The notes under the pieces are model-generated. The model was not told the DNA's origin. It did not search any database and worked only from the letters and a program-made list of their open reading frames with translations. The position numbers and the translations under genes were made by a program. From NCBI GenBank assembly GCA_022225965.2, contig JAKJXP020000019.1, forward strand, positions 186,001 to 250,000: 64,000 bases of DNA. Direction: 5' to 3'. Within the stretch, counting starts at the first letter, position 1. Each line of letters opens with the position of its first letter. This document shows, piece by piece, positions 25,821 through 51,485 of the stretch. This DNA is from Diatrype stigma (Eukaryota; Ascomycota; Sordariomycetes; Xylariales; Diatrypaceae).

Positions 25821-26030
25821 TGTAAATCCGGGCATTCCCCATAATGCCAAGGATCGGAAAATCGAAATATAAAATTCTAGCAGCTTAAAGCGTATAACTG
25901 TATTTAGCTTTAATTTAATAATAAGTCCGGACCTTTAATATAATCCTAAATAAATTGCTAATAGCAGTAATTCCTTAAGGATTCGAAAGACCGGACGTAA
26001 AAATATAAATAGCTATTTTTATAAGCTAAC
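25821..26030 (+). repeat. 5' LTR of gypsy element (right edge approximate)
   Basis: Begins TGTAAATCCGG and aligns with 31176-31384 through ATAATGCCAAGG, TAAAGCG, AAGTCCGGA and GCTAATAGCAGTAATTCC. Most differences are transitions of RIP type. Similarity fades after about 26025, so the right edge is uncertain by perhaps 15 nt. Confidence 0.75.
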
Positions 26031-27800
26031 GCCAATAACGCAAAATTTACCTTATTTTTTTACGAATTCTTTCCGATAACCGACGATAGCAAAAAGCAAC
26101 GCTAATATGGAGAAACAGCCCAAAAGCGTTCCGGCCTAAGGCGGCATCTTCGCCGAATTCTTTACGAATGTAAAGCCCGTTTAAAAAAACGGCATATTAT
26201 ACGAACTTTTCGATAAAGAATTCGAAAATATCAAACGAAGAAATACCTCGATAAAAAACAACCTAAATTACTTAATAAATAAAGTTACGAAAATAACCGC
26301 GTATTTCGATATTAAGCCTAAAAGCAAAAAAATCGAAACGCCGAATTAACAATTTCGCCGAAAAAGTAAATAAATTTAATAATAACAACAACAATCCATA
26401 TCTAATACCGAAAAAACGGCTACCGCTGGCAATACGAAATCGCCAATTAGTTTTCGTAAATCGCCCGAATTTAATTAAAACCAATATATATCGTATATTT
26501 AGCGCCCATTTTATTACGATAAATCGCGAATAAAGGAAAAAATTAATATGGCATATATACCGCCCGTTATAAATTATATTTAAAATCCGCAAAAAGAACG
26601 GATAAAAAAGGTATAACCCCCGATTATATTTCCGAACGATGCCGTAAAAATGAGCCATACCGAGGCGAAAAACAAAATAACGATACCTTTAAACTTTCGC
26701 CTGGTTTAAACCGATAATTAAATTTTAAAAAAGCTAAAGGAAATTTAAGAACGCCTTTTAGCAATATTAGTTTCATACGATCTTTGGATATACAGAATTA
26801 CGGACGAATTTACCGGCGATTTCTAATAAATAAAAATATATATTTGCAACAATAAGCCTAATTAAATAACGTTCGTAAAATATATCCTTTAAGTTTTAAA
26901 CGATTATAATGCTTTTTTAAAAACGTTAATTTATTTCGTAACGTTATTTCCGTATTAAAATGAAAATATATTAAACTTTATAAAACGCATTTACGAAGTC
27001 TTTTATAAAATGCCGAAAAATATTCGTAATAATTATTATATAAAAGAAATTCTTATCGATACGTTACGTAATAACTTGCTTAATATATAATTAATTTTTA
27101 ACGATCGATTCGAAAACTTTAATAACGCATAAAAAGTTAAAATAATTATTTAATAAGCCAAATTAATTACCCATTAAGCGATTAAAGGAAAAATTTACGG
27201 CACTTTTTCGGTTACCGTTTAATTTTAAAAAAAAATAACGCTATTTTATAATTTAACCGTTATAAGGGCTATATAAGCTAAATCCGGTACAATCCAATTA
27301 AAGCTCCCGGATATAATAACTATCGTATCTTAAACCGCGAAATTCGAAAAAATTACCGATCTTCGCAACGAAAGCCGTAACGTTTACGCCGCGGCCGAAT
27401 AGGGCTTCGCCGCGAAAGCCAAAAACAATAAATGCTTTAATTATAATAAGCAAGGCCATTAAATTAAGAACTGCAAAATAAAAGCGAAATTTCCGAAAAA
27501 TATATAATACGCAAGTACGGATAAAAAAATTACCTTTAAAGGAATCCTATATTAAAACGTCATTAATAATAAATTCCGATTAGCCTTTAATAAATTTAAA
27601 AAAAATAAACGGCCCCATATATATTTCGCCGGCGCCGAAAGTAATAGCGAAAACGACTTCGAAAAAAATCCCGCCGAATAGTTATAAAATAATAAAAGGT
27701 TCGATCGTAATCTTAACGAATTTCTTAAGTAATTCGAAAATAACGAATAAAAGCGCCGCGTTTATTTAATAAAAGTAAATGCCGATAATAAACCATTCCT
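26031..27800 (+). pseudogene. gag relic of gypsy element
   Basis: No intact frame. A nucleocapsid-type CCHC zinc knuckle is recognisable at 27433-27474 as CFNYNKQGH-stop-IKNC. The second Cys (TGT) reads Tyr (TAT), and a probable Trp codon is now a stop, both as RIP would produce. The upstream region with repeated acidic/basic short frames fits a decayed capsid region. Not functional. Confidence 0.6.
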
Positions 27801-30800
27801 TAATAAGAATAAACCTTTACGAAAAGGGTACGATAAAAATTATAATTTCTTTTTTACGGAAATAATCGACGGAAATGAATTCATAATTTTCTTAAATTAC
27901 GGATATATTTTTTGTTATATTTCCGAATTAATAACAGTTACGCTAAAAACGTATAATTTTTCGAAACCGTTAATAATGCGAAAAATTAAAGGCATAGGAT
28001 CGAAAATTTCGCGTAACGTAATAATTACCGCCCGGTTCTTAATGCCCGGTAATAATATTATTTCGTTTCGAATATTAACGGAAGTTATTCCCGACGGTAT
28101 TTTCTCCGATAATTTAATTCTTAAGAAAAGTTTATTCCATAAGTTAGGTATATATTATAAAAAAAAGGAAAAAAACGAAGTAATTATTTTAACTAAAATT
28201 ATCGAAAAGTTTATAATTTATTTAATTGCTTTATTACGTATCTTTTACGTTTTCGAAACGGCCTACGTAATAGCCGAACCTAACCTAATAACTTAATATA
28301 CACTTATTTTAATAAATAATAAGGCCATTAGTAAATATTTTTTATAATACGTTTATAATTTCCCAAAACTATTCGGGCTCGTTTCGAAAAAAGTTATTAC
28401 GAATATACGCATTCGCTATTATATCGATATTAGAAATAACAAATTCATTAAATTCTTTTTACGTCGATATAGCCCTGTTTAATTTCGGATATTTCGTAAG
28501 TTCGTTAAAAAGCATTTAGAAATAATTATACGTATCGGTACGGATTTATAAAATTTGCTTACGTTATTTATACCTAAAAAAGCACCGGATTAAATAACGA
28601 AGCCTAATAAATTCGATAAAAACGTAATATGGCGATTTTGCTATAATTATCGAAAATTTAATAAAATTTAACGGAAAAACGCTTATTCGTTTTTTAATGC
28701 GATAAATGAAATCCAATAAACGGCCGAATATTGTTAATATTATTTTATCGACCTTAAAAATAGTTTTTAATAAATTAAGATTTACGAACCAAATATCGAA
28801 AAAACCGTTTTCGTAATTTTATTTGGCATTTACGAATAATTAATAATGCCTTTCGGGCTTTATAACGTCTTAGTAATTTTTTAAGCATTAATAAAAAAAA
28901 TTCTCAAATTATTTCGCGAATTTATTTCGAATATGCTAAATAATATGGCCGTATAAATTAATATATTCGAATAATTTTATAAACGTATATTCGCTTTATT
29001 TAAAAGGCTTTCCAGTTACGGAATAATCGTAAACTTAATGAAGTTCTTAATATTCGTTAAAAAGGGGATTTTTTTAGGCTTCGTAATTTCCGAAAAGAAA
29101 ATCGAAACCGATTTAATTAAAATCGCGGCTATTCGAAATAAGCTTAAGCCGGTAATAATAACCGAAATTTAAGCGTTTATAAATGTCGCCGATTATTTGC
29201 GGCATTTAATTAATAGGTATTCAGAAATCGCTAAGCTATTTATAACCCTTATAGGCGGCCCGAAAAATGAACGTATTAAGTTATTTTCCGAAGTTATAAT
29301 AAGTTGGAAAATAATTCGCGAAATAATTATAATAACGTCCGTAATTCGGAAATTCGATTAACGCCGCCCGATTATTCTCGAGGCAAACGTTTCGTAATGA
29401 TTCGTCGGTATAACGTTATTATAACCTTATATAAAAGCAATAAACGCCTTCGTTTTATACTTAATTATTTATTTTTCGAAAAAGTTTATAAAAACCTAAT
29501 TACGATATTCCGCTTAAAAAAGGAATTTTTCGATATTATGTTAGTATTTTAATATTAGCGGCATTAAATTAAAAGCAACGATATAATAGTAATTATTAAT
29601 TACGAATCGTTAAAAACAATTAATACGAAAGCCGAATAATCGGCCCGCATATTATGCTTCCTTAATGCCATCGAATATTTCGGAATTCGTATCGTATACC
29701 GTTCGGACCGAACGAATATTCTTGCTGATTATTTTTCGAAATCCCAAGAAGCCGTAATAATGGCAGCCAAAAAAACCGAATCGATTCGTTACGCCGATTA
29801 ATTAAACCGATTAAATTTCTAAGTTATTTTCGAAATCCTTTTATATAATATTTTTTTATTTTTAGTTATATAATAAGAATAAATTAATAAGCACTTTGTT
29901 ATATACTAAAATAAGCTATATAAAGTAATTAGGTACGAAAAAATACCCGGTAATCCTTTATACGTAAAAAGTATCGTTACGAAAGCGCAAACTTTATAGG
30001 AAATCCTCGAATACGATAAATTCTTAATATAATTAAGACGGATTTATTACGACTAAAGCCATTCGATTATTAAAATAACGCTTTGCGATATATAAAAGCA
30101 ATTCTGGCATTCGAAAATCGTTTTCGTTACGTAACAAATAATTATTAAATGCCCGGCTTGCCAATTAATAAAAAAACCGAATTCCTTATTATTAAACTTA
30201 TAATCCGTATAACTTCCGGTATTCTTAATTAAATGAATAATCGATTATACGTCGATAGGCTCGTTTACGATTTTTATGGCTATTAAATACGTTACGGAAT
30301 AAATAAAAGCTAACGTTATTCCTTTTGCCCAATTCGGGAATACGATTCCTATATTCTTTCGTATCGGACGTATTTACGGTATTTCCAAAAAATAAATTAA
30401 TAATAACGCCGGCGCTTTTAAAAATAAAGCCGCAAATGCTTAAAATAAAAAATAAGGCTTTATTATAAAGGCTATTATATTAAGGCGCCTAAAAAGCAAC
30501 GGAAAAATAAAAAAGATTAATAAGGACTTAAAGAAAATTATATTATGCAAATATTAAGCAAATCTTACGGTTCGTTTGTTATTCGAATTATTGCAACGAA
30601 CGGTAATTATTTATAACTGCATTTTTAAATCGAACGGTTATAGCCCATATTTCTTATTATTTGGTATAATTTCCTTTTAAAAATAAACCTTATTGGAATT
30701 TTACGAATATTTTCGCGAATCGACGGAAAAAAAAAGCTTTAAAATAATAAATTATTAATAGCAAATCATAAAGTACCGCTTATAAAAGCCCGCTTTAATA

Positions 30801-31100
30801 ATATAAAAACGTTTCGTAATAAGATATAAACGTACCTTTAAAAAAAAAGAAGCTTATTAAAACGTATGTTCCGAATAATTAGGTTTTTCGCATTCGTTAA
30901 TGCTAAAAAAAGTACGAATCCTATTACGATAAGCCTTAAAGCGTAATTAACTATTATTCCGATAATACGTATTATTTACGAAATTTTAAAAAAATCCAAT
31001 TATAAAATAAATATAACGGGACGAATTTATTTCCGGCCTTCGTAAAGAACGGGCATTCCGTATGTAATATATAATATACGAATAAGCAATTTTTGAAATA
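27801..31100 (+). pseudogene. pol relic (protease, RT, RNase H, integrase)
   Basis: Reverse transcriptase is recognised from FIDLKNSF then two stops then IKI near 28744, from MPFGLYNVLVIF at 28846 (usual MPFGLCNAPATF), and from FLGFVIS at about 29070. RNase H ends near ADYFSKS (about 29725). An integrase zinc-finger half, KCPACQLIKKPN, lies at about 30147. Stops interrupt every few codons. A later chromodomain could not be recognised. The relic cannot encode an active enzyme. Confidence 0.7.
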
Positions 31101-31175
31101 AAATCGTCGGCACTTAATAAAAAAAGAAATTAACGATGGTAATTAAAAACGATTATAATAAAAAAGGGAAATAAT

Positions 31176-31384
31176 TATGGATCCGAATATTTCCCATAAT
31201 GCCAAGAATCGGAAAATCGGAATATAAAATTCTAACAACTTAAAGCGCATAATTATATTTAACTTTAATTTAACAACAAGTCCGGATCTTTAATATAATC
31301 CTAAGTGAATTGCTAATAGCAGTAATTCCCTAGGGGTTCGAAGGACCGGGCGCAGAAGCACATGGACTTGGTTATATATAAGCA
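31176..31384 (+). repeat. 3' LTR of gypsy element
   Basis: Begins TATGGATCCGAATATTTCCC after a purine-rich tract and matches the 5' LTR. Its last 70 nt are less mutated than the left copy (for example CCGGGCGCAG against CCGGACGTAA), so the RIP damage drops off toward this edge. It runs almost directly into the right TIR. Confidence 0.75.
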
Positions 31385-31464
31385 CTAGTACAATTACATA
31401 TCCAATATAGGACTTGGCGACCGGAGTGAGCGTCAGCGAATGGGCCGATATTAGGCGGAGTGAG
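31385..31464 (-). repeat. Right terminal inverted repeat
   Basis: Reverse complement of the left TIR with two C/T differences, followed by TA. Contains CTTGGCGACCGGAGTGAGCG, unchanged between copies. Confidence 0.9.
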
Positions 31465-31466
31465 TA

Positions 31467-32470
31467 CCTGGAAGTTCCGAGGAGCAGCTGCGAGGCACCT
31501 GTGTGACAGCCTCTGAGGCTGAGAGAGTGGGATATCCTGGCCGTCTTGGCTGTGAGCCTGGATGCATGGGCCCCTCCAACTCCTCCTTGGCCTTATCTCT
31601 GCCCCTTATCGCTTATCGTCACCTATGTATATATGTACATCCACTGCAACCTTGGACACTCTCAGCGCGAAGTCTATACAGTCTACAGTACAGTCTATAC
31701 ATACCTACATACCTACATACATACATACAGACCTGCCCCCTGTCCCCATAGCCCATAGCCCGCAGCCCGCAGCCCGCAGCCCGCAGCAGCCCGCACTTGG
31801 TAGAGGGTGCTGTATCGGCAAGTACCCTGTAACTAGCCCGTAGCCTCCTCCGACCCCAATTGATCTCGAAACACTTGCGTGGACACAATCACATTATTAT
31901 ACCAGAGCTTGCAGAATAGAACATTCACGGGCGAGGTGCCGCCCTTATAGATACGTGGAAGATGGGAATCCTTTGACGGTTTTGGTAAGTATCAGATCAT
32001 ATAACTACTTAAGAGTTAATACATGCCATTAGTTCGGTCTATCCATCTCATTCGTCCCAACCTTACCCGGTTGCTGGTGTTCTGGTGCTCTGGCGTCCTC
32101 GTACCAAGACAAAGAGCAACCAAGAGCCCCTCCATCTTACCCGTCCACAGCTTGCGTTACCTCCCACATCCATCGAGTCTCTCCGTCGACGCCTGCCCTC
32201 CCCTTACCTCCCCCCTACCTAAATAGTGGCTCTAGTGGCCTTGGTGGCCTGTATACTATCCTGTACTGCTCGGTAACCAAATGGCTCGCTAATTGCTCTG
32301 CAGTAGGAGCTGTGTTGAAAGGGGTCGGCAGCTACGACGACCTCCCACCCTCGAGAGTCGCCGTTGCTCCACGACGGAAACACGAGACCGCAACCCCAGC
32401 TACGACCACGACACGAGGACGGAAGCGATATAGTTGCACCCGATGATTTTGCTACTGCGACCCTATACAC
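31467..32470. other. Intergenic region upstream of PAN3 gene, with simple repeats
   Basis: About 1 kb with no convincing gene. It contains a CATA/CCTA-rich microsatellite (about 31700-31730) and a tandem array of the heptamer CAGCCCG (about 31755-31795). The last part should include the promoter and leader of the PAN3 gene. Confidence 0.6.
31755..31795 (+). repeat. CAGCCCG heptamer tandem repeat
   Basis: Five to six copies of CAGCCCG (one imperfect), GC-rich. A simple tandem repeat with no visible function. Confidence 0.8.
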
Positions 32471-35400
32471 ATGGCGAACACGCGCTTCGGAAACGCCGAC
32501 CGGGGCCGGCAAATGGCCTCCCCGCGACCTAAGACCCGTGGTAGGTGCCGGTGCCGCGTGCTCTCGACCCCATCCTCTCATCATCTGGTGCTTCGTAGAA
32601 GAGGTCGCAGACAGGACAGACCTATCCGGATCTATTCAGTCTCGCCCCATTGCACTGGTTGTCGCCATCGCGCTTATATTCCTCCTCCTGCTCTTGTCTC
32701 ATTGTCATCGTCGTTGGCACCCGCATCCTATACAGTGTCTGTCTAACATGACCTGTTCCTTCCTAGACACGAAGGATACTCTCTGTCGAAACGTCCTCAT
32801 ATATGGCCATTGCCGCTACGAAGATCAGGGTTGCGCCTTCAACCATGACCAACACAAGAATACATCGAACTCTACCGATAGGTAAGTTGATTGTTTGTAG
32901 TCTTGTCCAGCCTTACCTTCATCTATTTGGTCCCGGTGTCTTGGACTTTACTGTTATCGACCTCGCTATCCCGTTTCCGCCAAAGCCTCCGATCCAGTAT
33001 AGGAATGGAAGAGTGCTTTCAGTTGGGATTACAACATCAATACGTGATCGGTTCCATACTATTAGTAGGCCTTTAGGCCAATCCGAACATGCGAGGAAGG
33101 AGGTGGACGCGAAGGGGTCCAACCAGGGATTTACAGCAAGTTCGACGAGGTGAAGGCTTAGAGCCTACAGATGCCTCTTCACCCCCCTCGGAGCGTGAAT
33201 CTCCTATACTCCAGGCGGCAGCGACGGTTCCCATCAGGAGGAGGGTGCGTCGACGTCCTACTGTGCCATTCCTGGCTGGTCCCAATAGTCCTCGTGCAAT
33301 CGAGGCTACCTGTACAGACGGACCTCCCACTCTCTCCCACAATATTCAAAGCCGGCCTAGTACCAGCATGGCGTCCAATGGCGATTCTAGTGTGCCTGGC
33401 GTCATTCCTCCACCTGGGGAACTGGATCTCCCTGAAGGACCAGACCCATTATGTTCCAGAGCAGCCTCAGAGCCCGTAGATGCGCCAGGGCCGAAGTCTT
33501 TGTCCATTACGCTTGGGTCAATAGATTATATTGTTTCGCCTAGAGGCATCTCCCCTCATCCGATGAAGTCATCCCAAGGGATTCGGACTGAATATGCTAA
33601 CCAGCACCTTGGTGGCAGCTCTAAGAAATCGCTAAACGTCGACTCGCCCTCGTTTACCCCAGCCCAACTTCCATCAGGCAAGAAATCAACCTTCTCTACC
33701 AATGCAACGCCCTTCACTCCACGAGGGGCTGCTAGCTGTAAGAATCGACGACCCTTTATCTTGACGAAGACTTTTCTTACATAAACCATAGCCGCCAATC
33801 CCGTCCTGCCACAGGATACCAGCGCGTCTCTCTTCAAAACGGGCCAATTCTCTGATTTCACACCACAGAATTACGACCTAAATACCGGGGTATGTCGTAC
33901 CGATAAACATTCAAACCTGAACCTGATGTATAGTCATTACAAATCAAGCTGACTTCCAAGTAGAGTAACGCCAATGGTTCAACGGACACTAGTTCACTTG
34001 GCTATGATCCTTTCACTATGTCCGGTGTTGGCCATTCGTTGCCTGCGACAGCTTTCAACCCATATGCCGAAGACCATACTAACTTGGCCGCCGGAGCTGC
34101 CCCTTATTATGCAGCCCAGACCGCATATACAACCCCTCTGCAACCGGTAATATCTCATATTATGACAAGAATGTGATAAGTTTCTAACTGTTGCTAGTTG
34201 AATTACCACCTTTATAACCCTGTCACGCCTTCCAGAGAAAATTTACAGCCGTTCCAGAGACACGTGCAAGGGTTCTTCATCCCAGACAGCGTAAGGGAAG
34301 AGCTAACGAAGAAATCTGAAGCTGCAAGACAAGTCCTTCCCAGTTAGTCTCACCATGCTATATTGCCCAGTGTATCTCTAACCAATGCAGACTCGCAACT
34401 CCCCTCGCCGTCGCATTACCACACCCTTGTTCCCATAGATAACAGAGTCAGGCCTGCGTCTGGGTTCTTCGGTTTCATCAGTTGGGTTTATAAAGCTAGT
34501 TCTAAGAAAACTGGAAATATATACTGTTTGAGGCGCATCGAAGGTTTGTTCAGGAATCCTCCGTGCTAGTCGATTTTACTAACCGCTGCCGCTCCAGGTT
34601 ATCGTCTGACAAATGAGGACGCGTTTCTGAAGATAATAGGGGCATGGAGGAAAATTTCGCACCCCAGTATCGTCACCCTTGTTGAAGCTTTTACGACGCG
34701 AGACTTTAACGATAGCTCTCTGGTCTTTGCTCATCACTACCATCCACTTTCTCAGACCCTCTCTGACTATCACTTCTCATCTGATCGTTTCAGCAGACGT
34801 GTATCTTCCGTCCCAGAAAAGGTGTTATGGAGCTATCTCGTGCAAATCGCTGGTGCGCTCAAGGTCATTCATAATGCCAAGCTTGCTGCCCGTTGCATTG
34901 ATGCCACAAAGGTGATTCTAACAGACAAGAACCGCGTCAGGCTGAGTGCCTGCGCCGTTCTCGACGTGCTCCATCTGGAAGCCCGTCGACCAATCGATGA
35001 TTTACAGCAGGAGGATTTCTTGCACCTTGGGAAGCTCATTCTCGGCATCGCAACAAACACGTTGCCGAGAAATATCCAGGACGTATGGGCGTCGTTAGAT
35101 CAACTCGGCAGGGTTTACAGCCCGGAACTGAAAGACAGGGTATCTTGGCTACTAAGTCCGTCACCACAGACTCCCAACCCTGGTCTTAATGCGCAGCCAA
35201 AGACGGCTGAACAATTGCTCTTCGATCTGGCGCAACACACAGCGGATGTTCTCGACGCATCTCTCAACTTACAGGATGAGACGACGGCATACTTAGGGCG
35301 GGAGCTCGAGAATGGCCGTCTCTTCCGGCTGGCGGCCAAGCTGGGCGTCATCAATGAGCGGCCCGAATTCGACGGCGACCCCAACTGGTCTGAGACGGGG

Positions 35401-35667
35401 GAACGCTATACGCTCAAGCTTTTCCGAGATTATGTGTTCCACCAGGTAGATGCGGCGGGCAATCCGGTCGTAGACCTGGGTCACATAGTCTCTTGTCTCA
35501 ACAAGCTCGATGTCGGGGTTGATGAGAAGGTATACCTAACGAGCCGCGACAACCAGACAGCCTTCATTGTCACCTACAAGGAGCTTAAGAAGCAGGCCCA
35601 GACTGCCTTCGGCGACCTGCTTAAGGGGTCCTCGTCGTCCAAGCAGCAGTCTGGTAGGGGCTATTAG
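32471..35667 (+). CDS. PAN3: PAN2-PAN3 deadenylation complex subunit PAN3
   Basis: PAN3 tethers the PAN2 nuclease to poly(A)-binding protein for mRNA deadenylation. Exon 1 (32471-32540, MANTRFGNADRGRQMASPRP) and exon 2 (32767-32881) encode the CCCH zinc finger: CRNVLIYGHCRYEDQGCAFNH, written here as C-x8-C-x6-C-x3-H. A later exon ends at 33737 with KKSLNVDSPSFTP and TPFTPRGA, a PAN3 hallmark. Further exons are 33792-33889, 33964-34146, 34198-34342, 34391-34543 and 34598-35667, all in phase. They give the PAM2-type linker (LFKTGQFSDFTPQNYDL), the pseudokinase domain (IGAWRKISHPSIVTL to VLWSYLVQIAGALKVIHNAKLAARCID), a coiled coil and the C-terminal knob (YVFHQVDAAGNPVVDLGHIVSCLNKLD). The start of the third exon is unresolved; it must lie after the in-frame stop at 33074 and before about 33600. 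Confidence 0.92.
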
Positions 35668-36713: not shown

Positions 36714-37912
36714 TCATTCTTCTTCGTCGTACGGGTCGGGATGCTGGGCATTCCCATGCTGATGCTCGTGTTCTTCATTTTCTTCTTCTCCTCCTTCTCC
36801 CCCCGCCCCTTCCGCCCCCTCCTTATCATACGGGTCCTTCCCATCCCCCCCATCCTCCCCGTCCTCACTCCCATGTCTATGCGGCTTCGCGACATGGATC
36901 TGATCCGAATGCAGCGCGACGCCCGCCTCAGCCGCAACGCTATCGGGATCGACGCCCTTCTTCATCAGCATCGCCATGCAGTGCTGGATGTGCATGAGGG
37001 TATCGTAGCGCTTCTCAATGACGAGTGGCTGCACATCAGCACCATCACCATCATCAGCACCACCAAACTCCCACTCCCACTCCCGCCTGCCCTCTTCCTC
37101 CTCGCGCCGCTTCCCGGCCTCCCACATCTTGCGCCAGTAGTACACGCAGTGCAGCACGTGCCACTCGTGCGTGGCGAAGAAGTGCGCCGGCTCCCCGCGC
37201 CGCGCCGCCTCGGGCAGCAGGCTGACCTCCTCCACCGTCAGCGCTTGGGTTTGGTTCTGGTCCGCCCAGTACCCCCACGTGTTGCCCCAGCGGTCCGGGG
37301 GCACTGCGACGAAGACACACCTGCAGTCAGCATTTTATTTGTTCTGCGGTTTTGTCTTTAAAAAGACCAAGGGCAAAAGATTAGGGATTAGGTAAGTAAC
37401 GCACAAGGGCCCGCCGCCTCGAATTCCGCCGTGATGGCCTCCGACCGGCAGTGCGGCGGCAGCCACGCCGCCGCGAGCGAGTCGTACACGCACCCGTTGG
37501 CGCGCGCCTCCGCCACCGTCTCCCCGCAGTTGCAGGAGAGCGTGCGCGCCGCCGTCGACCCGGACCTGGACATGGACAGGATGGGCAAGAGCGGACGGGA
37601 TAGGAGGGACGCGCCGCCGTATAGCGCTAGTAGTGCGACGGCGACGTGGAAGGTCCACGAGAGCCCTCGTTTGATGATCATGGCTTGAGAGGGACGGGTT
37701 CTTGCGGTTATCTGGCTGCCGCCGATCTTGGCCTCCTCGTCATCGTCGTCGGCGACGTCAGGAAGGCTCGTGTAGGCAGCAGCAGCAGTTCCGGAGCCAA
37801 ATTGGCCCCCCGGCACTGGGAATCTAACATGAGTCGGAATTGTCAGAACGATCACGTCTTTTCTCAATACTGAATTGGTTGATATGGGTAAAGCATACTT
37901 CCACCAGCCCAT
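36714..37912 (-). CDS. Single-pass membrane protein with two HxxHC motifs (distant UstYa-like)
   Basis: Exons 37912-37405 and 37303-36714 join in phase to about 365 aa. The start is uncertain: another ATG precedes MIIKRGLSW, and a further intron near the N terminus is possible. A single membrane segment lies at about residues 86-108 (WTFHVAVALLALYGGASLL). The lumen-side part has a Cys-rich block, CNCGETVAEARANGCVYDSL, then AAAWLPPHC, then HEWHVLHC (H218-C222) and a second motif HIQHC (H274-C278). Two HxxHC motifs after one transmembrane helix is the plan of UstYa/DUF3328 oxidases. The surrounding sequence differs, and I recognise it only as a widespread uncharacterised fungal family. The tail is Glu/Gly/His-rich and low complexity. 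It lies 1.6 kb from the RiPP precursor, so membership of that cluster is possible but unproven. Confidence 0.7.
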
Positions 37913-39554: not shown

Positions 39555-40029
39555 TTATGCCTCTGTCTCCCTCTTGGGGTAGAAAGGGATCGCCTCAGAG
39601 TCCGAGTCCCTCTTGGGATAGAAAGGGATCGCCTCGGAATCTGAATCTCGCTTGGGGTAGAAAGGGATAGCCTCAGAATCGGATTCTCTTTTGGGGTAAA
39701 AGGGGATGGCTTCAGAATCCGAATCCCTCTTGGGGTAAAAGGGGATGGCCTCAGAATCGGATTCTCTCTTGGGATAGAAAGGGATAGCCTCAGAATCAGA
39801 GTCCCTCTTGGGATAGAAGGGAATGGCCTCGGAGTCCGAGTCCCTCTTGGGGTAGAAGGGGATGGCTTCAGAGTCCTTCTCGGCGACTCTCGTCTCTATA
39901 ACCTTGATAAGCAACCCCTCAAGAACTATGGACATATAATACCGGGCTAGGATAGACTATTCTCTTACCTAGCGGAGCGGCGGCCACAAGTCCGGCAAAG
40001 GCGAGGATGAACAGCTGCTTGGATTGCAT
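39555..40029 (-). CDS. Dikaritin-type RiPP precursor peptide with eight core repeats
   Basis: Exon 1 (40029-39969) encodes a signal peptide beginning MQSKQLFILAFAGLVAAAP. Exon 2 runs to 39555. The acceptor is ambiguous: a 43-nt intron ends at 39926 and a 73-nt intron ends at 39896; both keep frame, and the longer is more typical. After a short pro-region come eight copies of DSEAIPFYPKR joined by DS or ES, a 13-residue (39-nt) period, then ETEA and stop. Every copy ends in KR, the Kex2 processing site. Each has one Tyr, next to Phe and Pro. This matches UstA, PhomA and GigA-type precursors (ustiloxins, phomopsins, epichloecyclins): signal peptide, identical repeats, KR after each. The core sequence matches none of the dikaritin cores I remember. 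A UstYa gene lies next to it, head to head. Confidence 0.87.
39570..39875 (-). repeat. Eight tandem 39-nt coding repeats of the RiPP precursor
   Basis: Units start at 39875, 39836, 39797, 39758, 39719, 39680, 39641 and 39602 on the minus strand; the last is cut to 33 nt. Nucleotides differ at many third positions (KR is coded by AAG AGG, AAG CGA and AAA AGA), while the 11 residues DSEAIPFYPKR are identical in all eight. Only the linker residue before Ser varies (D or E). Confidence 0.95.
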
Positions 40030-40151
40030 GGTGATGAATGATGAGCCTTTCGTTTTATTATTGAGATAGTGGTGTCTTCGGGAAGTGTATGAATGTGAAG
40101 ATAACTACAGTGACGGTTATACAGCAGCGTACGGCTCTTGTTTGAGGATCT

Positions 40152-40168
40152 TATATAGTGCCATTGGG
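40152..40168 (-). promoter_or_regulatory. CCAAT and TATATAA elements of precursor gene
   Basis: On the minus strand CCCAATGG (40161-40168) is followed by CACTATATAAG, with TATATA at 40152-40157, about 125 nt before the precursor ATG. This is a strong core promoter by fungal standards and fits a highly expressed small secreted peptide. The 624-nt space between precursor and UstYa start codons is shared by both divergent genes. Confidence 0.55.
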
Positions 40169-40653
40169 TTCGGTAACCGCGGATGAACTACCCCTCAAAC
40201 TTCCCCTGCCCGTTTACCATGCCGCATGTGCAGGGGAGCGAAGTAGATAGGTAATAATCTTCCGTCCATTGACACTACGTAGGTGGCTTGTTATAATGCA
40301 TGCGTGGTGGCAGATGATGGGCAGTGGTGTTGATTGCAGGTGTTTTTAACCATTAAACCTGGTATCGTTAAGCATTTCGGTTTACTCATCGTTCCACCCC
40401 ATGATGCAAAACGGGAACTAACTGGAAGAGAAAGGTGGTTTCCCCACATGGCTATATCGTGGGAACCCACGGAGTGCTCGGCAAACTAGTTTCCCTGGCT
40501 GGGAATCGCAGCGGGTTTTGTCCGATAGCTTTGGACTACTATCATTCCCAAGGCAGCATTACCCCCGAGGATCCAGGAACTCTACATCCCTAGCTGAAGA
40601 GCAAGTTCACATCACCCCAAATACTATGTCTGCCGTCCATTCGCCCAGCCGTC

Positions 40654-41633
40654 ATGGATAGCGTAGGTAAACAAAATCTATTGAGTTCACCTCACAGTTC
40701 TTGTGACTATGTGACCTCACCTGGAGATGAGGACTTGGAGAGATCGTTTCTGTGGCCCAGCGGGGAGAAGCGCCCAGGTCGTGGCCTCCGACATCTTTCA
40801 GCACCAAAGAGCCGAATATGGGCAAGCCCGGGTCTATGGCTCACCGTCATGAACTTTGGACTGTTTGTTTTCTCTGGGTTGATGCTATGGGCGTCAAGGA
40901 AGCAGAATATAAGCGACCAAGACATGTGGAAAGCCACATCCTATTTCTGTAAGTGACCAAACCACGCAGCCGGTCAGCCAACAAATCAGCTAACCTACCT
41001 ACCATCAACGTAGCGCCAATCCTAGAGCGGTTTGATATACCTAAAATAAGCCGCGTAACTAATGGTACTCTTTACGACACCAATCCGCCTTCTATCCTGC
41101 GGATGCGGACAGGCGAACAGGCAGATACGGAGTGGCATCGTATCGGAGACCATGTATGGCCGCTCGTTATCAGCGCGGACGATGTGCGGGCGCTCGGCAA
41201 GGACCCCGAGGTCGCCGTGAGGATACCCGACGACCTAGGTTACGGGCCCGATGCGTACATCGCCCAGACCGAGGTCTTCCACCACCTGCACTGCCTCGAC
41301 ATGCTCCGGAGGGAAACATCGTATGCCCACTACTACGAAGAGAAAGAAGGGCCGTTCCCGGGCAGTGCTCAGCACCAGGCCCATATTGGGCATTGCTTCG
41401 ATATTTTAGCGCAGGCGATCAAGTGTACCGGCAGCGTCGACATGATCACGTTCAACTGGGTCGAGGAGTGGGATCAGCCGTTTCCGGACTTCGCTAACCA
41501 TAAGGTCTGCCGTAATTTTGACAGCCTGCTGGACTGGGTGAATGCCAATGCGATAGAGCCGGAGGACTTTCAGAAGATGAAGACGCCACCACCTGGGTAT
41601 GCAGTGTTGCCAGCACCCAGACCTGCATCATAA
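40654..41633 (+). CDS. UstYa-family (DUF3328) oxidase, probable RiPP cyclase
   Basis: Exons 40654-40948 and 41014-41633 join in phase to 304 aa. One transmembrane helix sits at about residues 60-80 (GLWLTVMNFGLFVFSGLMLW) after a short cytosolic N terminus. The body carries both family motifs: H188-x-x-H191-C192 in HHLHCLDMLRR and H222-x-x-H225-C226 in HIGHCFDILAQAIKC. UstYa-family proteins carry out oxidative macrocyclisation through Tyr in ustiloxin, asperipin and related RiPPs, and other oxidations in different pathways. Here the neighbour is a repeat precursor with one Tyr per repeat, so cyclisation of that peptide is the likely job. Other conserved features are SPILERFDIPK near the start of the domain and WPLVISADDVRAL. 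The start codon gives a normal family length. Confidence 0.9.
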
Positions 41634-43270: not shown

Positions 43271-45059
43271 CTAATATACATAGACGAATTCGTCGTTCGT
43301 CGAGTCCGTCAAGTCCTTGAACGCATTTTCGCCCGCTTGGAAGCCACTTTCATCGCCCTGTTTCGCACTACTGGTATACTTATGATCCATACTAGCATCG
43401 TGAAGCTTGGCCGGCTTCCCGTTGCTGACGCGTCTTCGCTCCTGCATCCGGTTCAGAACCAGGAGGTTAACGACTTGGCACGCAACAATAGCGAGCAAGA
43501 CGCAGGTGACGATCATAACCTTCTCCAGGCCCGACTTGTAGTACGGCGCGTCGTTCTCATTAAACAGCAGAGGGCCGATGATGTTGCCGGCGGAGACGCC
43601 GATGTTGAAGAAGGCCAGGATGACGGACTTCTTGGTGGAGCCGCCAATGTTGGAGATCATCCAGGAGATGAGCAGCGGGTTCGCGCCGAAGAGGAAGGCG
43701 AGCATGTAATAAGCTGCGAGCAGCGGGGGCATGTGCTGGTAGTCCAGGAGGTACAGCATGACGGCGCCCGCGAGGACGGGCAGCAAGACGGCCCCGAGGA
43801 AAGGCGACTTGACACGGCAGCGGTGGGAGAGGTAGGACGACGGGAAGATGATCAGAAGCTGGACAGCGCCGAAGGGGATGTTCATCAACGACGAGGTATT
43901 GGAATCGAAGCCGAACCCGCTCAGGATGATGGGGCCAAACGTGTTGGTGACCATAGCAGTGACGTTGAGACACACAGCCATGCCGAAGAAGAACCAGCTC
44001 TTCGGCTCGAGGATAGCCTCCAGCGCCTGGGCCCACTTGAACTCGCGGGATCCGGTACCAGTCTGGTTGGCTCGGAGCCGCTCGATGGCCTGCAGCTTCT
44101 CGTAATCCGTCAGGAACCGGGCCGACGCGACATCGCTGTCGATGACGATGTAGATGATCACGGCCGTGATGACCGTGACCAGGCCAACTAAGATAAACAG
44201 GATGCGCCAGGAGGAGATAAGAGGGGACTCGATTTGACCGAGACCGTACGAGATGGCAGCTACAATCATGGTCGAGAGACCGTTCGTGCCGTACCAGGCC
44301 GCCACACGTATGGGCTGCTCCGCTCGGCGATACCACTGCGAGGTAATGACCGAGAAGAGAGGCAGGCAGGCGGCCTCGAAGAGACCGAGCAAGAACCTAG
44401 TTGCGACCAGGCCGCCGTAGCTATTACACGCCCCCATGCACGCCTGAGCGGTGCCCCACCCAAAGACCAGAACGGCCATCAGGACGCGGTGCGGCACCCG
44501 GACCACGAGCCAGGAGGAGAAGGGAAGCCAGACCAGCTGCGCGATGGCCGAGGTGGAGCTCACCATGGAGTACTGGTTGCCGGTCAGGTTGCAGTCGGCG
44601 CGCATCCCCAAGATGGCGCCGTAGCCGAGGGCGGATTTGTCGAGGATCTGGAGGAAGTAGACCCAGACGAGCACGGTCAGGATGTGCTTGTCGGTCTTTC
44701 GACGGATGCGCTTGTTCTATTACATGTATGTGTGGTTAGTTACAAGAATAGTTATTGGCTCGAGGCTCGAGCAAGCCCAGTATACTAATACTCACATCTT
44801 CCTCGGTCAACTCGACACTCTGGTCGCCGATGAGGTCCGCCGCTCGGTCCGCACCTTTGGTGGGAGCGTGATTCTTCTTGAAGTCGGCCTCGGCATCCTC
44901 GATACGCAGCTGCGATATAGCATCCTCGGTCTTGGAGTTATCGGCGGCCATGGCGTCGGATATTGGCGATGTCTCAAAGCCTAGGCTGGCGGGAGTCGGA
45001 TCTTGGATGGATGCAAATTGAAAGACGTTCAGATGCTGGCCGCTGCCATCTGAAGTCAA
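43271..45059 (-). CDS. MFS transporter, anion:cation symporter (allantoate permease-like) family
   Basis: Exons 45059-44796 and 44716-43271 join in phase to about 569 aa; a second in-frame ATG (44951) would give 36 residues fewer. The N-terminal 88 residues are hydrophilic. About twelve membrane segments follow, starting LTVLVWVYFLQILDKSALGY. Family marks include LDKSALGYGAILGMR, ATRFLLGLFEAACLP, WYRRAEQPIRVAAWYGTNGL and SVILAFFNIGVSAGNIIGPL. This is the Dal5/Tna1-like group, which takes up organic anions such as allantoate and nicotinate. In the RiPP setting it could import a precursor or export product, as MFS genes do in asperipin-type clusters. It could also be an unrelated nutrient permease. 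The sequence does not settle the direction or the substrate. Confidence 0.88.
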
Positions 45060-46400: not shown

Positions 46401-47305
46401 CTACTCGGGCAGTACATCCAGCTCTTCGTAGTATCGGTAGATACCTAGCGTATACCCCTGCCGCCTTTCACTGGCAAGATACGCGGAAATCCTGGGCCGC
46501 GATTTGACGGCTTCATAATGCTGGAAAAGACGATTATACTTCCCAGACTCCTTGGCTGCAGATATGACTTTGGGAAAGGCGTACTGGGTGCCATCGAGGC
46601 ACTGCCATATCCCGTGTTAGACCCTGGTGAATGCGCGATGCTGTATGGCTTGGGCATGTTGATAGCATAAGGGAAAGGAATAGATACGACAGTAATAGGT
46701 ACGTGATTCGCGTCAAGTATGGAAATAAAGCAACTCACCTGAAATAAGACCAGATCTGCGTATGTCAAGGTACCTCCATACAGCCAGGGACCATCGCCAC
46801 TAGCCTCACCCTTGAGCACCTTTTCGAAATACCCAAGGTGCTTAGGCAAGCGAGTCTTGATGAATTCCTTGCTCCGGCGTATAGCTTCGGTCTTCTGGTC
46901 CTCGTAGTACAGCTCTTTGGCAATAGGGTGGTGGCAGTCGTGAACCTCGTTGCTGAGGCCGTCCAGGGCAGTCAGCACGAGTCCGTTGATCTTATAGATA
47001 TCGTTCTCCTTGCCGGGACCGGTAGGCACAAGCCCCAGCCTCGGGCCCAGGTACGACAGGATATTCGATGTCTGGGAGATCAACAAGTCGCCGTGCCTCA
47101 GGATTTGGGGTGCGTAGGGAGGCGGGTTGGTTGCGTCCCCAAGATTATCGTCGCCCATCTGAGCCCAGACAATGTCGCCGCATGCCTGCATGCCCAGCCT
47201 AGCTGTATCGGAGTACGATGCCCCGGCCTCCTCTAGCGCAAGGCGAATATGCTCGCCACGGCCCGGGGCACCGGGCCAGTAAAGCAGTTCGTAGGTCGCT
47301 GCCAT
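46401..47305 (-). CDS. Cytosolic glutathione S-transferase (sigma/prostaglandin-D-synthase-like)
   Basis: Exons 47305-46739 and 46601-46401 join in phase to 255 aa. The N-terminal thioredoxin-like domain starts YELLYWPGAPGRGEHIRLALEEAG, with YAPQILRHGDLLISQTSNIL holding the glutathione contact (QTSNI; the usual form is QSxAI). The helical C-terminal domain has WLYGGTLTYADLVLFQCLDG across the splice site and ends RRQGYTLGIYRYYEELDVLPE. GSTs of this type conjugate or isomerise small electrophiles. In the cluster context it may detoxify or add thiol to a reactive intermediate; ordinary detoxification is equally possible. The first frame continues past the true 3' splice donor, which can mislead automated calls into a wrong C terminus. 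Confidence 0.88.
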
Positions 47306-47734
47306 TCTGGAATCACGGTGTCGCCGAGACGGCGAGACCAATTGTTGTGTGTTAGTGTACTCGCTGATTTCGGGAGTTGACCTGTAGTGGCACTTTGGCA
47401 GTGTGGCAGTGTAGGATTGAATGGAGCAGGAAAGAGTGAGCTGTCAGCTCGCAAAAGGGGACAGCAAGGGGCTCTATCTGGTTTGTAACTTAGTGTTGCT
47501 GACTGCCTTTATGCTATACCCCGCGCACAGAGCGGCAGAGCGGCAGTGCGGCACAGCTAGATCCAGTGTCCACTGGGTATCTGGACATCCGAAGTTTCCG
47601 ACCGTATCGCATAAAGTGATTGGGTAGCGAGCGAAGTACTGGGGATGAGAAGTATATTGAAGATCGATACTTGTCCCGGGGATTTATAAGTACTATTAGG
47701 GAGCTGCCTAGTTTGGGATGGCAAAGTGCCTATT
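47306..47734. other. Spacer upstream of GST gene
   Basis: About 430 nt between the GST start and the 3' end of the reductase gene. Likely GST promoter; no other feature seen. Confidence 0.6.
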
Positions 47735-49036
47735 CTACCCCCTTTTCAACCGCTCGACTAGCTTCAGTATAGATTCCACGGTATCCACGACACTCTCCTC
47801 CAAGCCCCTGTATTCCAGACCCAGGACCTGTCTGGATTTGCTATTATCGAAACCGTACACGTCGTCAGGGAAGTCATCCTCTACCTCCGCCGGCGGCAGC
47901 TTCGCCGCCAGTTCCGGATACCGGCTTCGGATGATATCCGCGACCCTCTTCGTGGAGTAATGCCCACCAACGACGTAGAACCGGTTCCCTCCCGCCCCTG
48001 GCAGCATCAAGGCTCGCACGTGTGCGAGCGTCACGTCACGGACGTCCACCCACGTGAAAACCGGCGCCGTGGGCCGGAGCGCCTCTTTCAATTTACCCGA
48101 AATCAGGTCTCGGATTATGTGGTTCGATGTGTTGACCGCTTCGAGGCTCGGGAGGCTCCCCTGAACGGGGCCGAATGTGTATGTGTTGTTGATGACCACC
48201 AAATCGAAGTTCGGCTTCTCCTCGGCGACGAACGCCCATGCCGCCTTTTCGGAGAGGACCTGGAACTGGTCAGCACTCTCTACTACTCGCCTGGATGCAA
48301 GACTCGAATATCCGATCATTTTCGTCGGGGTGACTTACCTTACTTGCTCTATAGGTCTTCCCCGGATCCATGGCGTCTTCCCAAGTCAAGGGAGCCCAGT
48401 GTGTCTCATTATACACCTTCTCGTGGTTCTCGAAGTTGAGCATGGCTGCGGAGGAGGACGTGATCACTATCCTCTTGACTCCCGGGGCATAGGCCTTGGC
48501 CGACTTCAGCACCCCAACGGTGCCCTTGATAGCAGGGTCTAAGAACTCCTTGATAGGGTCATCCACGACGAGGGAATACGGCGACGCGGTATGAACTACA
48601 TAGTCAATCGACGGGTCTTGTTTGAATACCTGGGAGGTCGAGTCTGTTAGCTAGGTACTAATAGTATCTGACAGCGAACAAGTCTTAACTTACGACATCG
48701 AAAGCTCCGTCTTTCGCGATATTCTCGACTATGGCGTAGGTCACAGCGTCCTGTTGAGAGGGGTTGACTGCTTCAACTATCCTACGGCCCTTTTCATCTG
48801 ACCTAGTTGTCACTATGACTTGAAAGCTATAACCATATCAGCGTCTCCGTTGGAACACTTTTGATAGAAGGGGCGATTTACCCAGCATCTAGAAGAGCAT
48901 CGAGAATATGCGATGCGATGAAACCGCTACCCCCTTGAATATGTAGGTATTAGCATGCGAGTCGAACCTGACAGAACGATAGTATGTCTGACTTACCAGT
49001 CAGGAGCACTTTGCCCTTTGCTGAGCCGGTTGCCAT
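47735..49036 (-). CDS. NAD(P)-dependent dihydroflavonol-reductase-like / extended SDR enzyme
   Basis: Five exons (49036-48997, 48933-48882, 48826-48694, 48629-48339, 48259-47735) join in phase to 346 aa. The Rossmann motif TGGSGFIASHIL is at residues 13-24, VTTRSDEKG follows beta-2, and DYVVHTASPYSLVVDDP and VITSSSAAM are typical of the group. The catalytic pair is Y168 and K172 in YRASK. Relatives include dihydroflavonol 4-reductase, cinnamoyl-CoA reductase and yeast Gre2, which reduce aldehydes and ketones. In the RiPP locus it could reduce a keto or imine intermediate, as a reductase does in the asperipin-2a cluster; this is inference. It is divergent from the FAD monooxygenase, with a shared 570-nt promoter region. 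Confidence 0.9.
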
Positions 49037-49606
49037 TGTATTCGTGATCGGGGTGTTACCTATGCGTAAGAGTATGGCCACCGTGTGACAATGTGGACTA
49101 TATTTTTAATGTGGCACACAGAAAGGTGAGCATGGGTTATCTATTTGAATTAATAAGCTGTCGACATCGGGCGGGACTCAAGTTGCGTGAGACGAACAGG
49201 GGCTTATTTCCGCCCCGGAACTCCGAATGGAAATGGTGTAATTACCCCACCACAAGCCGGATGTAAGAACTGTAAAGAACAGGATGTCATATCACGCAAC
49301 CTCGATACATGTGATTGGCACGGTCTCAATTGCAAAACCGACCCCGATGCAGTGTAACGTCTACGGAGCCGAGCAGAGTGAGAGATAGAGATAGCACGGT
49401 CAAAAGCTCGGTAGCAGCATATAGGTATAGCTACCGAGGTCATCTAGATCCAAGGAGGGATTGTTCGCCTGCTGTCACCCTTGTAATGAACAATGAGGGC
49501 GAGACTTATTTCTAGGGTACTACCACCCTAAACAACTTCGGGAAATATATCGTAGATCTTTGAATCCTTGAACTACTGTATTAAGTCATCATCATCTACC
49601 CACACA
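49037..49606. promoter_or_regulatory. Shared divergent promoter region, reductase / FAD monooxygenase
   Basis: 570 nt between two divergent start codons. It contains CGGAACTCCG near 49216 (CGG-N4-CCG half-site pair), a possible binding site for a zinc-cluster factor. No TATA box stands out. Co-regulation of the pair is plausible but not shown. Confidence 0.4.
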
Positions 49607-51485
49607 ATGTCCCTACCGTCAGGCACAGCAACACCAGAGTCCGGCTCCGACCTCGAGCATGTCGAAGATACCGCGGACCATCCAAGCGCGGACGAAGAAG
49701 AAGAACGAGACGGCACCGGCTCCGACTCCGACAGCGTCACGCGGCGACGGCTACACGTAGCCATCATCGGCGGCGGTATCACAGGCCTGACGCTCGCGCT
49801 GGGCCTCTCGGCCCGCGGGGTGCGGTACACGGTGTACGAGCGATCCGCCAGCCTGCGGGAGACCGGGGCCGGAGTAGGTCTCAGCTCGAACGCGGAGCGG
49901 GCTCTGCGCGCCGTCGACGCGCGCGCCCATGCCGCTTTCAAGCGCGTCGCGGCGCCCGGCGCGAGCGGCGGCGACTGGTTCGATTGGGTCGACGGCACGA
50001 CGGACCAGCTGGCCTTCCGGCTGCGGACGCGAATAAACGACGACGGCGACAGTGGTGGTGGTGATGGGGAGGGCGAGGGCGAGGCGTTCCAGGGCTGTCG
50101 ACGGTCGGATCTGCTTGAGGGGTTGGCGCGGCTCGTGGAGCTGGAGGAGGGGGATGTGCGGTTTGGGAAGGCGGTTGATGCGATTGAGGGGTGGGGAAAG
50201 GAGGGTGGGGATGAGGGGGTTGAAGAGGGAAAAAGGGAAGTGGGTAAGGTCGTACTGAGGTTTAGAGATGGGACGACTGAGGAGGCTGATGTTGGTAAGT
50301 ACCTGCCTACTCGAAACATATAGCTCGGGCTGCTATCTTGGCTGTTGCATATTGACAAGCGTGCCTGTCGGGTCACAGTGATCGGCTGCGATGGCATCCA
50401 CTCGCGAGTCCGACAGCTCCTGCTCGGGGAGGATAACCCGGCCTCATACGCGACATACACGCAGAAATTCTGCTTCCGGACTGTTATTCCCATGGCGCAG
50501 GTGAAAACCCGCCCGGAACTCGCGCACAGGATGAATGCGCGGGTCATGTTCAACGGGCCTGGAGCGCACATTAGTAAGACGCCCCTAGACTCACTTACAG
50601 ATACCTAGCCCTATCTTGTTTCCGGCTTACGAAACAGGGGGCACTAGGTGCTGACTCGAAAATTCTGCAGTGACGTATCCCATCGGCGCCGAGGCAGATA
50701 TCCTGAACATACTTCTTGTCATTTCCGATCCTCCATCCTCGTCACCTCCAGCCGTCCCTCATCAGCACCAGGAGAAGGCAAAGCCCAACGGGCTGGAGAC
50801 AGCAAAAAGGTTACCGGCAGCCAGGGCCTCGAAGCGCGACGCCGTCACCGCTTTCGCCACATGGCACCCCACGATACGCGGCATCGTGGATCTCCTACCT
50901 GACGACGAGGACGGAGACGGAGAAGATGGCGAAGACAAGGGAGCCCTCAGGTGGGACATCTACGACATGCACGAGCACCCGGCACCACACTACGTGCGTG
51001 GCCGTGTGTGCCTAGCGGGCGATGCAGCGCACGCTTCCACACCGCATCTCGGGTCGGGGGCCGGCTTCGGGATCGAGGACGCGCTGGCGCTGGCGACAGT
51101 GCTGGAGGCGCTTGATAAGGAGGTCACTGCTACTGATGCTGCTAACAACGGTAGCGGAGAGTTAGAGCCAGTGGTAGGGAAAGAGATTGTGGGAAACGGG
51201 TCGACGAGAGGAAACGGTAGAGCGAGGCTCTGCCGCGCCGCGCTTGCAGCGTACAACGATGTCCGCTACGAACGGACGCAGTGGTTGCCGGGGGCATCGC
51301 GCGAGGCGTGCGCGCTGTTCGAGTGGGAGGACGAGGCGGGACGGCACGGGAAGAAGGATCCAGCGTGGTTTGGTAGTGAGATCACCCGGCGGTTCTATTA
51401 TATCTGGAAGTATGATGTCGACGGGATGGTCCAGGATGTGGCCACGAAGTTTAGGGAAAGGGTGGGGGATAATGGGACGTTATGA
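49607..51485 (+). CDS. FAD-dependent monooxygenase (salicylate-hydroxylase-like)
   Basis: Exons 49607-50294, 50379-50573 and 50671-51485 join in phase to 565 aa. The FAD Rossmann motif is VAIIGGGITGLTLALGLSARG (GGGITG at 55-60). The DG motif is VIGCDGIHSRVRQLL across the first splice site, and the GD motif is VCLAGDAAHASTPHLGSGAG with GIEDALALATVLEAL. These three motifs in order define group A flavoprotein monooxygenases, which hydroxylate aromatic or other activated carbons using NAD(P)H and O2. The first 45 residues are acidic and low complexity. There is a second Gly/Asp-rich insertion near residue 145-165. In the RiPP context it might hydroxylate Tyr or Phe side chains; FAD monooxygenases are also found in the ustiloxin cluster. 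An independent degradative role is possible. Confidence 0.9.

Follow-up and report, generated by a model that had tools for sequence, protein, structure and literature searches.

A divergent repeat precursor and UstYa oxidase gene pair in Diatrype stigma: a probable dikaritin-like peptide locus

The gene pair

Two divergently transcribed genes lie at positions 39555 to 41633 of the window analyzed here, a 64-kb stretch (186001-250000) of contig JAKJXP020000019.1 from the ascomycete Diatrype stigma. One encodes a small protein, predicted to be secreted, that consists of repeats each ending in the dibasic Kex2 site Lys-Arg (KR). The other encodes an oxidase of the UstYa (DUF3328) family. Judged by sequence, the pair is very probably a locus for a ribosomally synthesized and posttranslationally modified peptide (RiPP). 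A first-pass annotation had described a repeat precursor head-to-head with a UstYa oxidase, and the repeats with their KR sites, the exon for the signal peptide, and the divergent gene are all present. The features are as follows.

39969..40029, minus strand: precursor exon 1, encoding the predicted signal peptide MQSKQLFILAFAGLVAAAPL (sequence and hydrophobic stretch by hydropathy)
39896..39968, minus strand: precursor intron, GT...AG, in its preferred 73-nucleotide form (putative splice choice)
39555..39895, minus strand: precursor exon 2, with eight copies of (D/E)SDSEAIPFYPKR, the first copy being EKDSEAIPFYPKR, then the tail ETEA and a stop codon (translation and Tandem Repeats Finder)
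40030..40653, no strand: divergent intergenic region, 624 bp between the start codons (coordinates of both genes)
40654..41633, plus strand: UstYa/DUF3328 oxidase of 304 amino acids, exons 40654-40948 and 41014-41633 (Pfam PF11807)

The precursor had been called a small secreted protein. A signal peptide is indeed predicted, but not where it was assumed to be: MQSKQLFILAFAGLVAAAP is encoded by a separate exon (40029-39969), outside the uninterrupted open reading frame (ORF) that carries the repeats. This N terminus resembles those of two related proteins described below, from Polytolypa (P0050, MQLKQL...) and Aspergillus coremiiformis (P0053, MQLRHI...). Plausible in-phase acceptors give an intron of 43, 73, or 82 nucleotides, and with the 73-nucleotide form the protein has 133 residues; other in-phase acceptors, which leave a 22-nucleotide intron or lie inside the first repeat, are unlikely. 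With its predicted hydrophobic N terminus and eight KR-ended units, the protein has the two features of a Kex2-processed repeat protein (KEP), namely, a signal peptide and repeated units split by dibasic Kex2 sites.

How alike are the repeats? SEAIPFYPKR is present eight times without any change, and KR closes every repeat. The claim of eight identical cores is therefore correct for this stretch but not for the whole 13-residue units, in which it is preceded by DSD or ESD, or by EKD in the first copy. Tandem Repeats Finder reports an array at 39568-39876 with a period of 39 nucleotides and 7.9 copies (scores, 380 and 449). Over the ten core codons, the 28 pairs of repeats differ by 123 synonymous and 0 nonsynonymous changes (proportions pS 0.65 and pN 0), which indicates old repeats kept to one protein sequence rather than a recent slippage array. 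By this measure, purifying selection on the protein encoded by the repeat gene is strong. A repeat scan, which flags ORFs with at least three dibasic sites at which at least six of the eight preceding residues are alike, was controlled with the rest of the window and with 75 mononucleotide shuffles; it flagged no further ORF in the 64 kb and none of the 75 shuffled 10-kb sequences. The array scores, the scan and shuffle nulls, the purely synonymous differences, and the existence of an annotated relative that shares the core place the precursor beyond chance.

The UstYa gene is interrupted by an intron at 40949-41013, and the reading frame of exon 2 suffices for a match to PF11807 with an E value of 1.3e-48 (166 bits, against a cutoff of 25). 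Its product has one transmembrane helix (about residues 60 to 80, by hydropathy) followed by HHLHC at 188-192 and HIGHC at 222-226, and so is the single-pass protein with two HxxHC motifs that had been claimed. The six His and Cys residues of the motifs are invariant in all 20 rows of one alignment, the window protein included, and in 44 of 44 homologues in another. These alignments took 19 (plus the window protein) and 44 of the 49 homologues found; unnamed, partial, or closely similar records were omitted. An AlphaFold model of the Monosporascus orthologue (79% identity) has a low-confidence N-terminal part, the transmembrane helix, and helices at 185-200 and 217-237 that bear the motifs. 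The 624 bp between the two genes are, we infer, probably a shared promoter.

Relatives of the precursor and the oxidase

Is the pair found in other fungi? Fungal proteins were searched for core-like repeats and for UstYa, as the first-pass annotation had proposed, and relatives do turn up. Of 3945 candidates for the precursor, a single one reaches E ≤ 1e-3, AJ80_09370 (P0050) of Polytolypa hystricis, a member of the Eurotiomycetes by taxonomy look-up. Its units include EDSEAIPFYPKR, EDSEAIPFCPKR, and EVIPFYEKR, and a core identical to that of the window is among them. Of 511 candidates in the UstYa search, 49 proteins reached E ≤ 1e-3, among them the orthologue AJ80_09369 (P0016) of Polytolypa. 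The two separate searches thus meet at genes with neighboring locus tags (and the longest contig given in each record is 33,158 bp). When the two precursors were combined in a profile, 5360 candidates yielded four additional proteins at E ≤ 1e-3, along with a weak match (E 0.8) to an unnamed protein. The four are from Cadophora sp. (Leotiomycetes; unit EDAEAIPFYKKR), a JGI metagenome, A. coremiiformis, and Seiridium unicorne (Sordariomycetes; DEAIPFYPKR twice). The claimed class, a Kex2-processed repeat precursor with a UstYa oxidase in the manner of the dikaritins, is well supported by the PF11807 match, the repeats, the Polytolypa pair, and the invariant motifs.

Among the 20 KR-to-KR units of the seven precursors, 18 contain IPFY, preceded by a spacer of six residues in 15 units, three residues in two, and 25 residues in one; the two exceptions have IPFC (in Polytolypa) and IPVV (in Cadophora). 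What follows the Tyr is variable (P, K, E, or S). The spacer of the window precursor is DS-DS-EA, with one XA dipeptide, while relatives have AE-DA-EA or HN-EA-EA, and two Seiridium units have an odd three-residue form. Where, then, does the core begin? The six residues before IPFY look like the dipeptide spacers removed by Ste13. The core region had been given as EAIPFYP. Of this, IPFY is shared, EA and what precedes it may belong to a spacer that is trimmed off, and the position after the Tyr varies. The core is probably better narrowed to IPFY(P).

The UstYa matches come from Monosporascus, Biscogniauxia, Parahypoxylon, Colletotrichum, Seiridium, Polytolypa, Emydomyces, many Aspergillus species, Knufia, Bisporella, Bimuria, and metagenome records, the top one being from Monosporascus sp. 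MG133 (Sordariomycetes, Xylariales). A midpoint-rooted tree of the window protein and 29 of the 49 homologues, with the same kinds of record omitted, sets the Sordariomycetes (13 rows, 95/84) apart from the Eurotiomycetes (15 rows, 99/98). Bisporella and Bimuria are grouped on long branches, a join about which the program warns. Class assignments come from taxonomy look-ups for Polytolypa, Cadophora, Seiridium, Knufia, Emydomyces, and Monosporascus; the remaining genera we take to belong to the classes under which they are counted. The split fits descent better than recent transfer, the root being only a midpoint.

In Colletotrichum scovillei, the UstYa orthologue (P0028) is annotated as a fusion with a DOPA 4,5-dioxygenase domain (PF08883), and the name DOPA-dioxygenase is given to two further Colletotrichum orthologues, a hint that the two genes are neighbors in that genus. 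A DOPA-dioxygenase partner in D. stigma was considered and rejected, as PF08883 matches only on contig C160.

A proposed pathway

What might the two genes make? It is probable, in our view, that they are the core of a fungal RiPP pathway in which processed repeats are oxidized by UstYa, linked through Tyr, trimmed of their spacers, and secreted. The gene pair, the repeats, sites, and motifs, and the conservation of core and pair can be read directly; expression, the succession of steps, the role of copper, the bond formed, and the product we infer. The signal peptide would take the precursor into the secretory pathway. Kex2 would cleave after each KR and Kex1 would strip the KR, leaving eight (D/E)SDSEAIPFYP peptides. 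Cutting by Kex2 and Kex1 and modification by UstYa-family enzymes are described for dikaritin precursors (PMC9769878, PMC10512285).

The membrane-anchored UstYa would hold a copper pair between its two HxxHC helices and use O2 for peptide oxidation. The DUF3328 protein CctR is reported to be membrane anchored, dimeric, and O2 dependent, with a binuclear copper site formed from HxxHC(x)nHxxHC (PMC12435403), and ApnU and AprY are cited as being copper and O2 dependent too (PMC12435403; PMC12186524 for AprY). The window UstYa has the same plan, a transmembrane helix and two motif-bearing helices, according to hydropathy and the orthologue model. Cyclization through the only Tyr is plausible. Within Ile-Pro-Phe-Tyr, the likeliest bond would run from the Tyr phenol oxygen to the β-carbon of Ile, or to that of Phe, by analogy with the order of residues in epichloecyclin (Ile first) and with asperipin, in which a Tyr oxygen is linked to a Phe β-carbon (PMC12186524).

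The acidic dipeptides DS-DS-EA may then be trimmed by a Ste13-type dipeptidyl aminopeptidase, and the modified core secreted. Why would trimming stop at the core? An N-terminal Ile-Pro would be a good substrate for this type of enzyme. Since Ile-Pro could itself be cleaved, modification ahead of trimming would explain the halt.

Weighing the alternatives

The oxidase need not close a ring. It could hydroxylate, halogenate, or desaturate the Ile, Pro, Phe, or Tyr and leave a linear product, and DUF3328 proteins have been implicated in halogenation and hydroxylation (PMC12435403) and in desaturation (PMC10512285) besides cyclization. In one Polytolypa unit, moreover, Cys stands in place of Tyr, a change that a Tyr-linked ring would not tolerate. 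Set against this are the retention of IPFY in nearly all units and the reported enrichment of Tyr in KEPs with a DUF3328 neighbor, 65.6% versus 38.2% (PMC7329392), so that a product without a ring seems fairly unlikely. Less likely still is an unmodified linear hormone or pheromone-like signal, with the neighboring UstYa acting on another substrate. Deep conservation would suit a signal, and the six-residue acidic spacers that follow KR and end in EA recall the XA dipeptides removed by Ste13 from alpha-pheromones (PMC9769878, PMC6339444). But precursor and UstYa are adjacent in two fungal classes (here and, by locus tag, in Polytolypa), a DUF3328 neighbor is reported to be nearly always absent from pheromone-type KEPs (PMC7329392), and the motif WxW was not found in the units. 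A structural surface or wall protein of the Rep1 type, with incidental KR sites, would also be small, repetitive, and (as predicted here) secreted, and Ustilago Rep1 peptides are reported to form amyloid-like fibrils (PMC9769878). With a KR closing each repeat, a core of only about seven residues, and UstYa adjoining the precursor in two lineages, this option is very improbable.

Several observations weigh against a Tyr-linked RiPP pathway all the same. The Cys-for-Tyr unit is one, and the spacer EA, which is also a hallmark of pheromones, is another. The conservation of IPFY was partly selected for, because precursor candidates had to share five-residue words with the query and relatives lacking the core would be missed. 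The gene pair was seen directly in only one other genome, that of Polytolypa; no annotated precursor match was found for Colletotrichum, which has many UstYa matches, or for the Aspergillus species with such matches, and in A. coremiiformis a precursor was found but, among the UstYa matches listed, none. No tyrosinase, methyltransferase, or peptidase gene adjoins the pair among the 50 of 194 window ORFs of at least 90 amino acids on which Pfam was run. The orthologue model is only moderate (predicted local distance difference test score [pLDDT], 74.8; predicted template-modeling score [pTM], 0.58) and matched no solved fold at E ≤ 0.001, nor did a sequence search (E up to 1) find a solved structure of a UstYa homologue; nothing finer is drawn from the model.

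Taking the RiPP pathway as the preferred reading, a bolder proposal can be made, though only tentatively. The IPFY peptides may be a deeply conserved, undescribed RiPP family that has kept the same core and UstYa partner since before the split of Sordariomycetes and Eurotiomycetes. Its product would more likely be a hormone-like signal than a fast-changing toxin, and a second class of HxxHC copper protein, one without a Pfam model, would take part (see below). A developmental role has been reported for Neurospora POI2 (PMC7329392).

Neighboring genes

Apart from the pair, the following features were recognized in the surrounding window.

36714..37681, minus strand, exons about 37681-37405 and 37303-36714: candidate distant UstYa-like protein (HVLHC and HIQHC motifs)
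43271..44716, minus strand: major facilitator superfamily (MFS) transporter, anion:cation-symporter-like (Pfam MFS_1, E 2.4e-31); the next recognizable gene beyond UstYa
46448-47443: glutathione S-transferase (Pfam)
48273-48650: weak 3-beta-hydroxysteroid dehydrogenase (3-beta-HSD)/NAD-binding ORF (Pfam)
49556-51482: FAD-binding oxidoreductase, in pieces (Pfam)
32319-35664: Pan3, on the other side of the pair (Pfam)
8490-9794, plus strand: gene with a tyrosinase domain (Pfam), separated from the locus by about 30 kb and beside a HET-domain gene at 10294-11631, minus strand

The MFS transporter has its best NCBIfam match, below cutoff, to the D-galactonate transporter TIGR00893. Nothing ties it, the glutathione S-transferase, the 3-beta-HSD ORF, the FAD oxidoreductase, or Pan3 to the pair. 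A larger cluster reaching to the tyrosinase gene was rejected because genes for a protein-mannosyltransferase (PMT), a PRP21-like protein, and Pan3 lie between, as does a stretch poor in GC. Located at 26001-32000, where GC is 28 to 36% (51% overall) and long ORFs are few, this stretch may represent a mutated repeat region.

The second HxxHC protein lies 1.9 kb beyond the precursor stop codon. It has an N-terminal hydrophobic stretch weaker than that of UstYa, a CGxxxxEAxxxGC...C segment, and then the motifs HVLHC and HIQHC. Is it a relative of UstYa? Pfam gives no UstYa match, only a subthreshold one to DinB_2, and NCBIfam matches neither this protein nor UstYa. As a single sequence, it scores poorly against the 20-row UstYa alignment (Prob 4, E 0.01). 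Four further places in the genome match it (E 9e-16 to 0.005), and when it is aligned with paralogues from three of these (L048, whose frame has stops, was omitted), the match to an 11-row UstYa alignment reaches Prob 91 and E 9e-7. Masking the HxxHC columns abolishes this match (E 0.37; best of 30 column shuffles, E 0.11; reversed profile, 0.15), so the similarity rests on the two motifs. The protein is a candidate distant UstYa-like protein by sequence and a possible cluster member. The weakest paralogue (C34:279797-280051) has two HxxHC motifs, and a UstYa gene (C34:281622) lies some 1.6 kb away. At C34:279797-292873, three matches of this family, the weakest and two more within 15 kb, stand near one UstYa gene.

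Other loci in the same genome

The genome searched comprises 49.0 Mb in 224 contigs, with 23 exon-level matches to PF11807 in 15 places. When the repeat scan was applied to 10-kb stretches around these places, 4 of the 15 were flagged: the window locus and one each on contigs C85, C119, and C154. C85:122000-131999 (L030 6985-7664, plus strand) probably encodes a secreted KEP, its repeats reading ARGDDAVAYNPAVYVMEKR; the UstYa match about 2 kb away ranks second in the genome. At C119:28100-38099 (L033 6770-7417, plus strand), within about 2 kb of UstYa exons, is a secreted repeat protein with repeats of the NDYAIRAE/KDYAIRSE type. The flagged frame there is not coding; in the frame with the signal, the sites of the NDYAIRAE-type repeats are single Arg residues, not dibasic. 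Its DYAI core resembles the EDYXI motif of ustiloxin and phomopsin. At C154:56100-66099 (L042 1915-2766, minus strand), about 2 kb from a UstYa gene, a secreted repeat protein has RRGDLDVGQCGTVDE..GKILxRCVGFD units with two Cys each, an unusual kind of repeat.

Searched against the genome, the window precursor matches its own locus and one unlike repeat protein on C74 (E 1.7e-4), so no second copy of an IPFY gene was found. The C74 protein (C74:239428-242682, L026, minus strand), also secreted, is built of PVADQDAAKFYDRS repeats and lies about 187 kb from the closest UstYa match on its contig.

Comparison with known systems

Is the peptide new? It had been called probably new, and in support of this, neither the core nor its fragments are printed in any main text searched (the supplement of PMC7329392 may hold it). 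The variant strings AIPFY, IPFYK, IPFYE, VIPFY, and DIPFY led to no paper on fungal peptides by title, and IPFY is not among the conserved Pezizomycotina motifs (at least four species) named in the accessible text of Le Marquer (2019). The core is, however, already encoded in public fungal proteins. The locus is of a known and common kind, with 1758 of 7878 KEPs across 1461 strains reported to have a DUF3328 neighbor (PMC7329392), while the dikaritins described up to the end of 2022 numbered only five (PMC10512285). What is apparently new is an unusually conserved core: near-identical peptides in distantly related fungi look like an old but undescribed family.

It is this conservation of core with oxidase across classes, rather than the class itself, that merits following. 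One short core shared so widely points to a common receptor or target, and the question of toxin or hormone becomes testable in several genera. A precursor with a single kind of core beside its oxidase is also a clean case for finding the residue pair that UstYa joins.

How does the pair compare with described systems? For the gene part of the present dikaritin definition, a KEP precursor adjoins a UstYa-family gene here and, by locus tag, in Polytolypa. An older five-gene definition (Ding et al., quoted in PMC12048977) includes a tyrosinase, a methyltransferase, several DUF3328 proteins, and a transporter or peptidase. Among the 50 of 194 ORFs scanned, the window falls short of it, with one clear DUF3328 protein, one distant HxxHC protein, and an adjoining MFS gene, the tyrosinase being 30 kb off beyond housekeeping genes and a weak methyltransferase-like ORF 14 kb off; later clusters such as that of asperipin-2a are also reported to lack some of the five (PMC12048977). 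KEP type G-6 of Umemura (2020) was considered as a possible home for the precursor. Its members are described as having Y and several D per unit, 46 of 49 with DUF3328, in genera that include Monosporascus, Hypoxylon, Colletotrichum, and Aspergillus; by that description, it also lists Histoplasma and Blastomyces, both absent among the 49 UstYa matches. Ascomycete alpha-pheromone precursors share the signal peptide, KR, and XA-type spacer dipeptides, but the window precursor has an adjacent UstYa and, as read from its units without a pheromone profile, IPFY rather than a pheromone core.

Ustiloxin and phomopsin (UstA/PhomA with UstYa/UstYb) likewise combine a KEP precursor and UstYa-family oxidase with Tyr and Ile in the core. 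Their core is YxIx, with Tyr first, a pattern that IPFY does not fit, and they have extra genes, tyrosinase and methyltransferase among them, none of which adjoins the window pair among the ORFs scanned. Epichloecyclin (GigA) also comes from a secreted precursor of KR-separated repeats, with a reported Ile-to-Tyr link in which Ile comes first and Tyr later (PMC9233826); it is set apart by its core. Asperipin-2a (aprA/aprY) shares the minimal plan of a repeat precursor and one UstYa-family enzyme without a tyrosinase (PMC6514808). It differs in its FYYTGY core with two Tyr ethers, where the window core has a single Tyr, and in an isoflavone reductase and a transporter within the cluster, whereas the nearest MFS protein of the window resembles an uptake-type subfamily.

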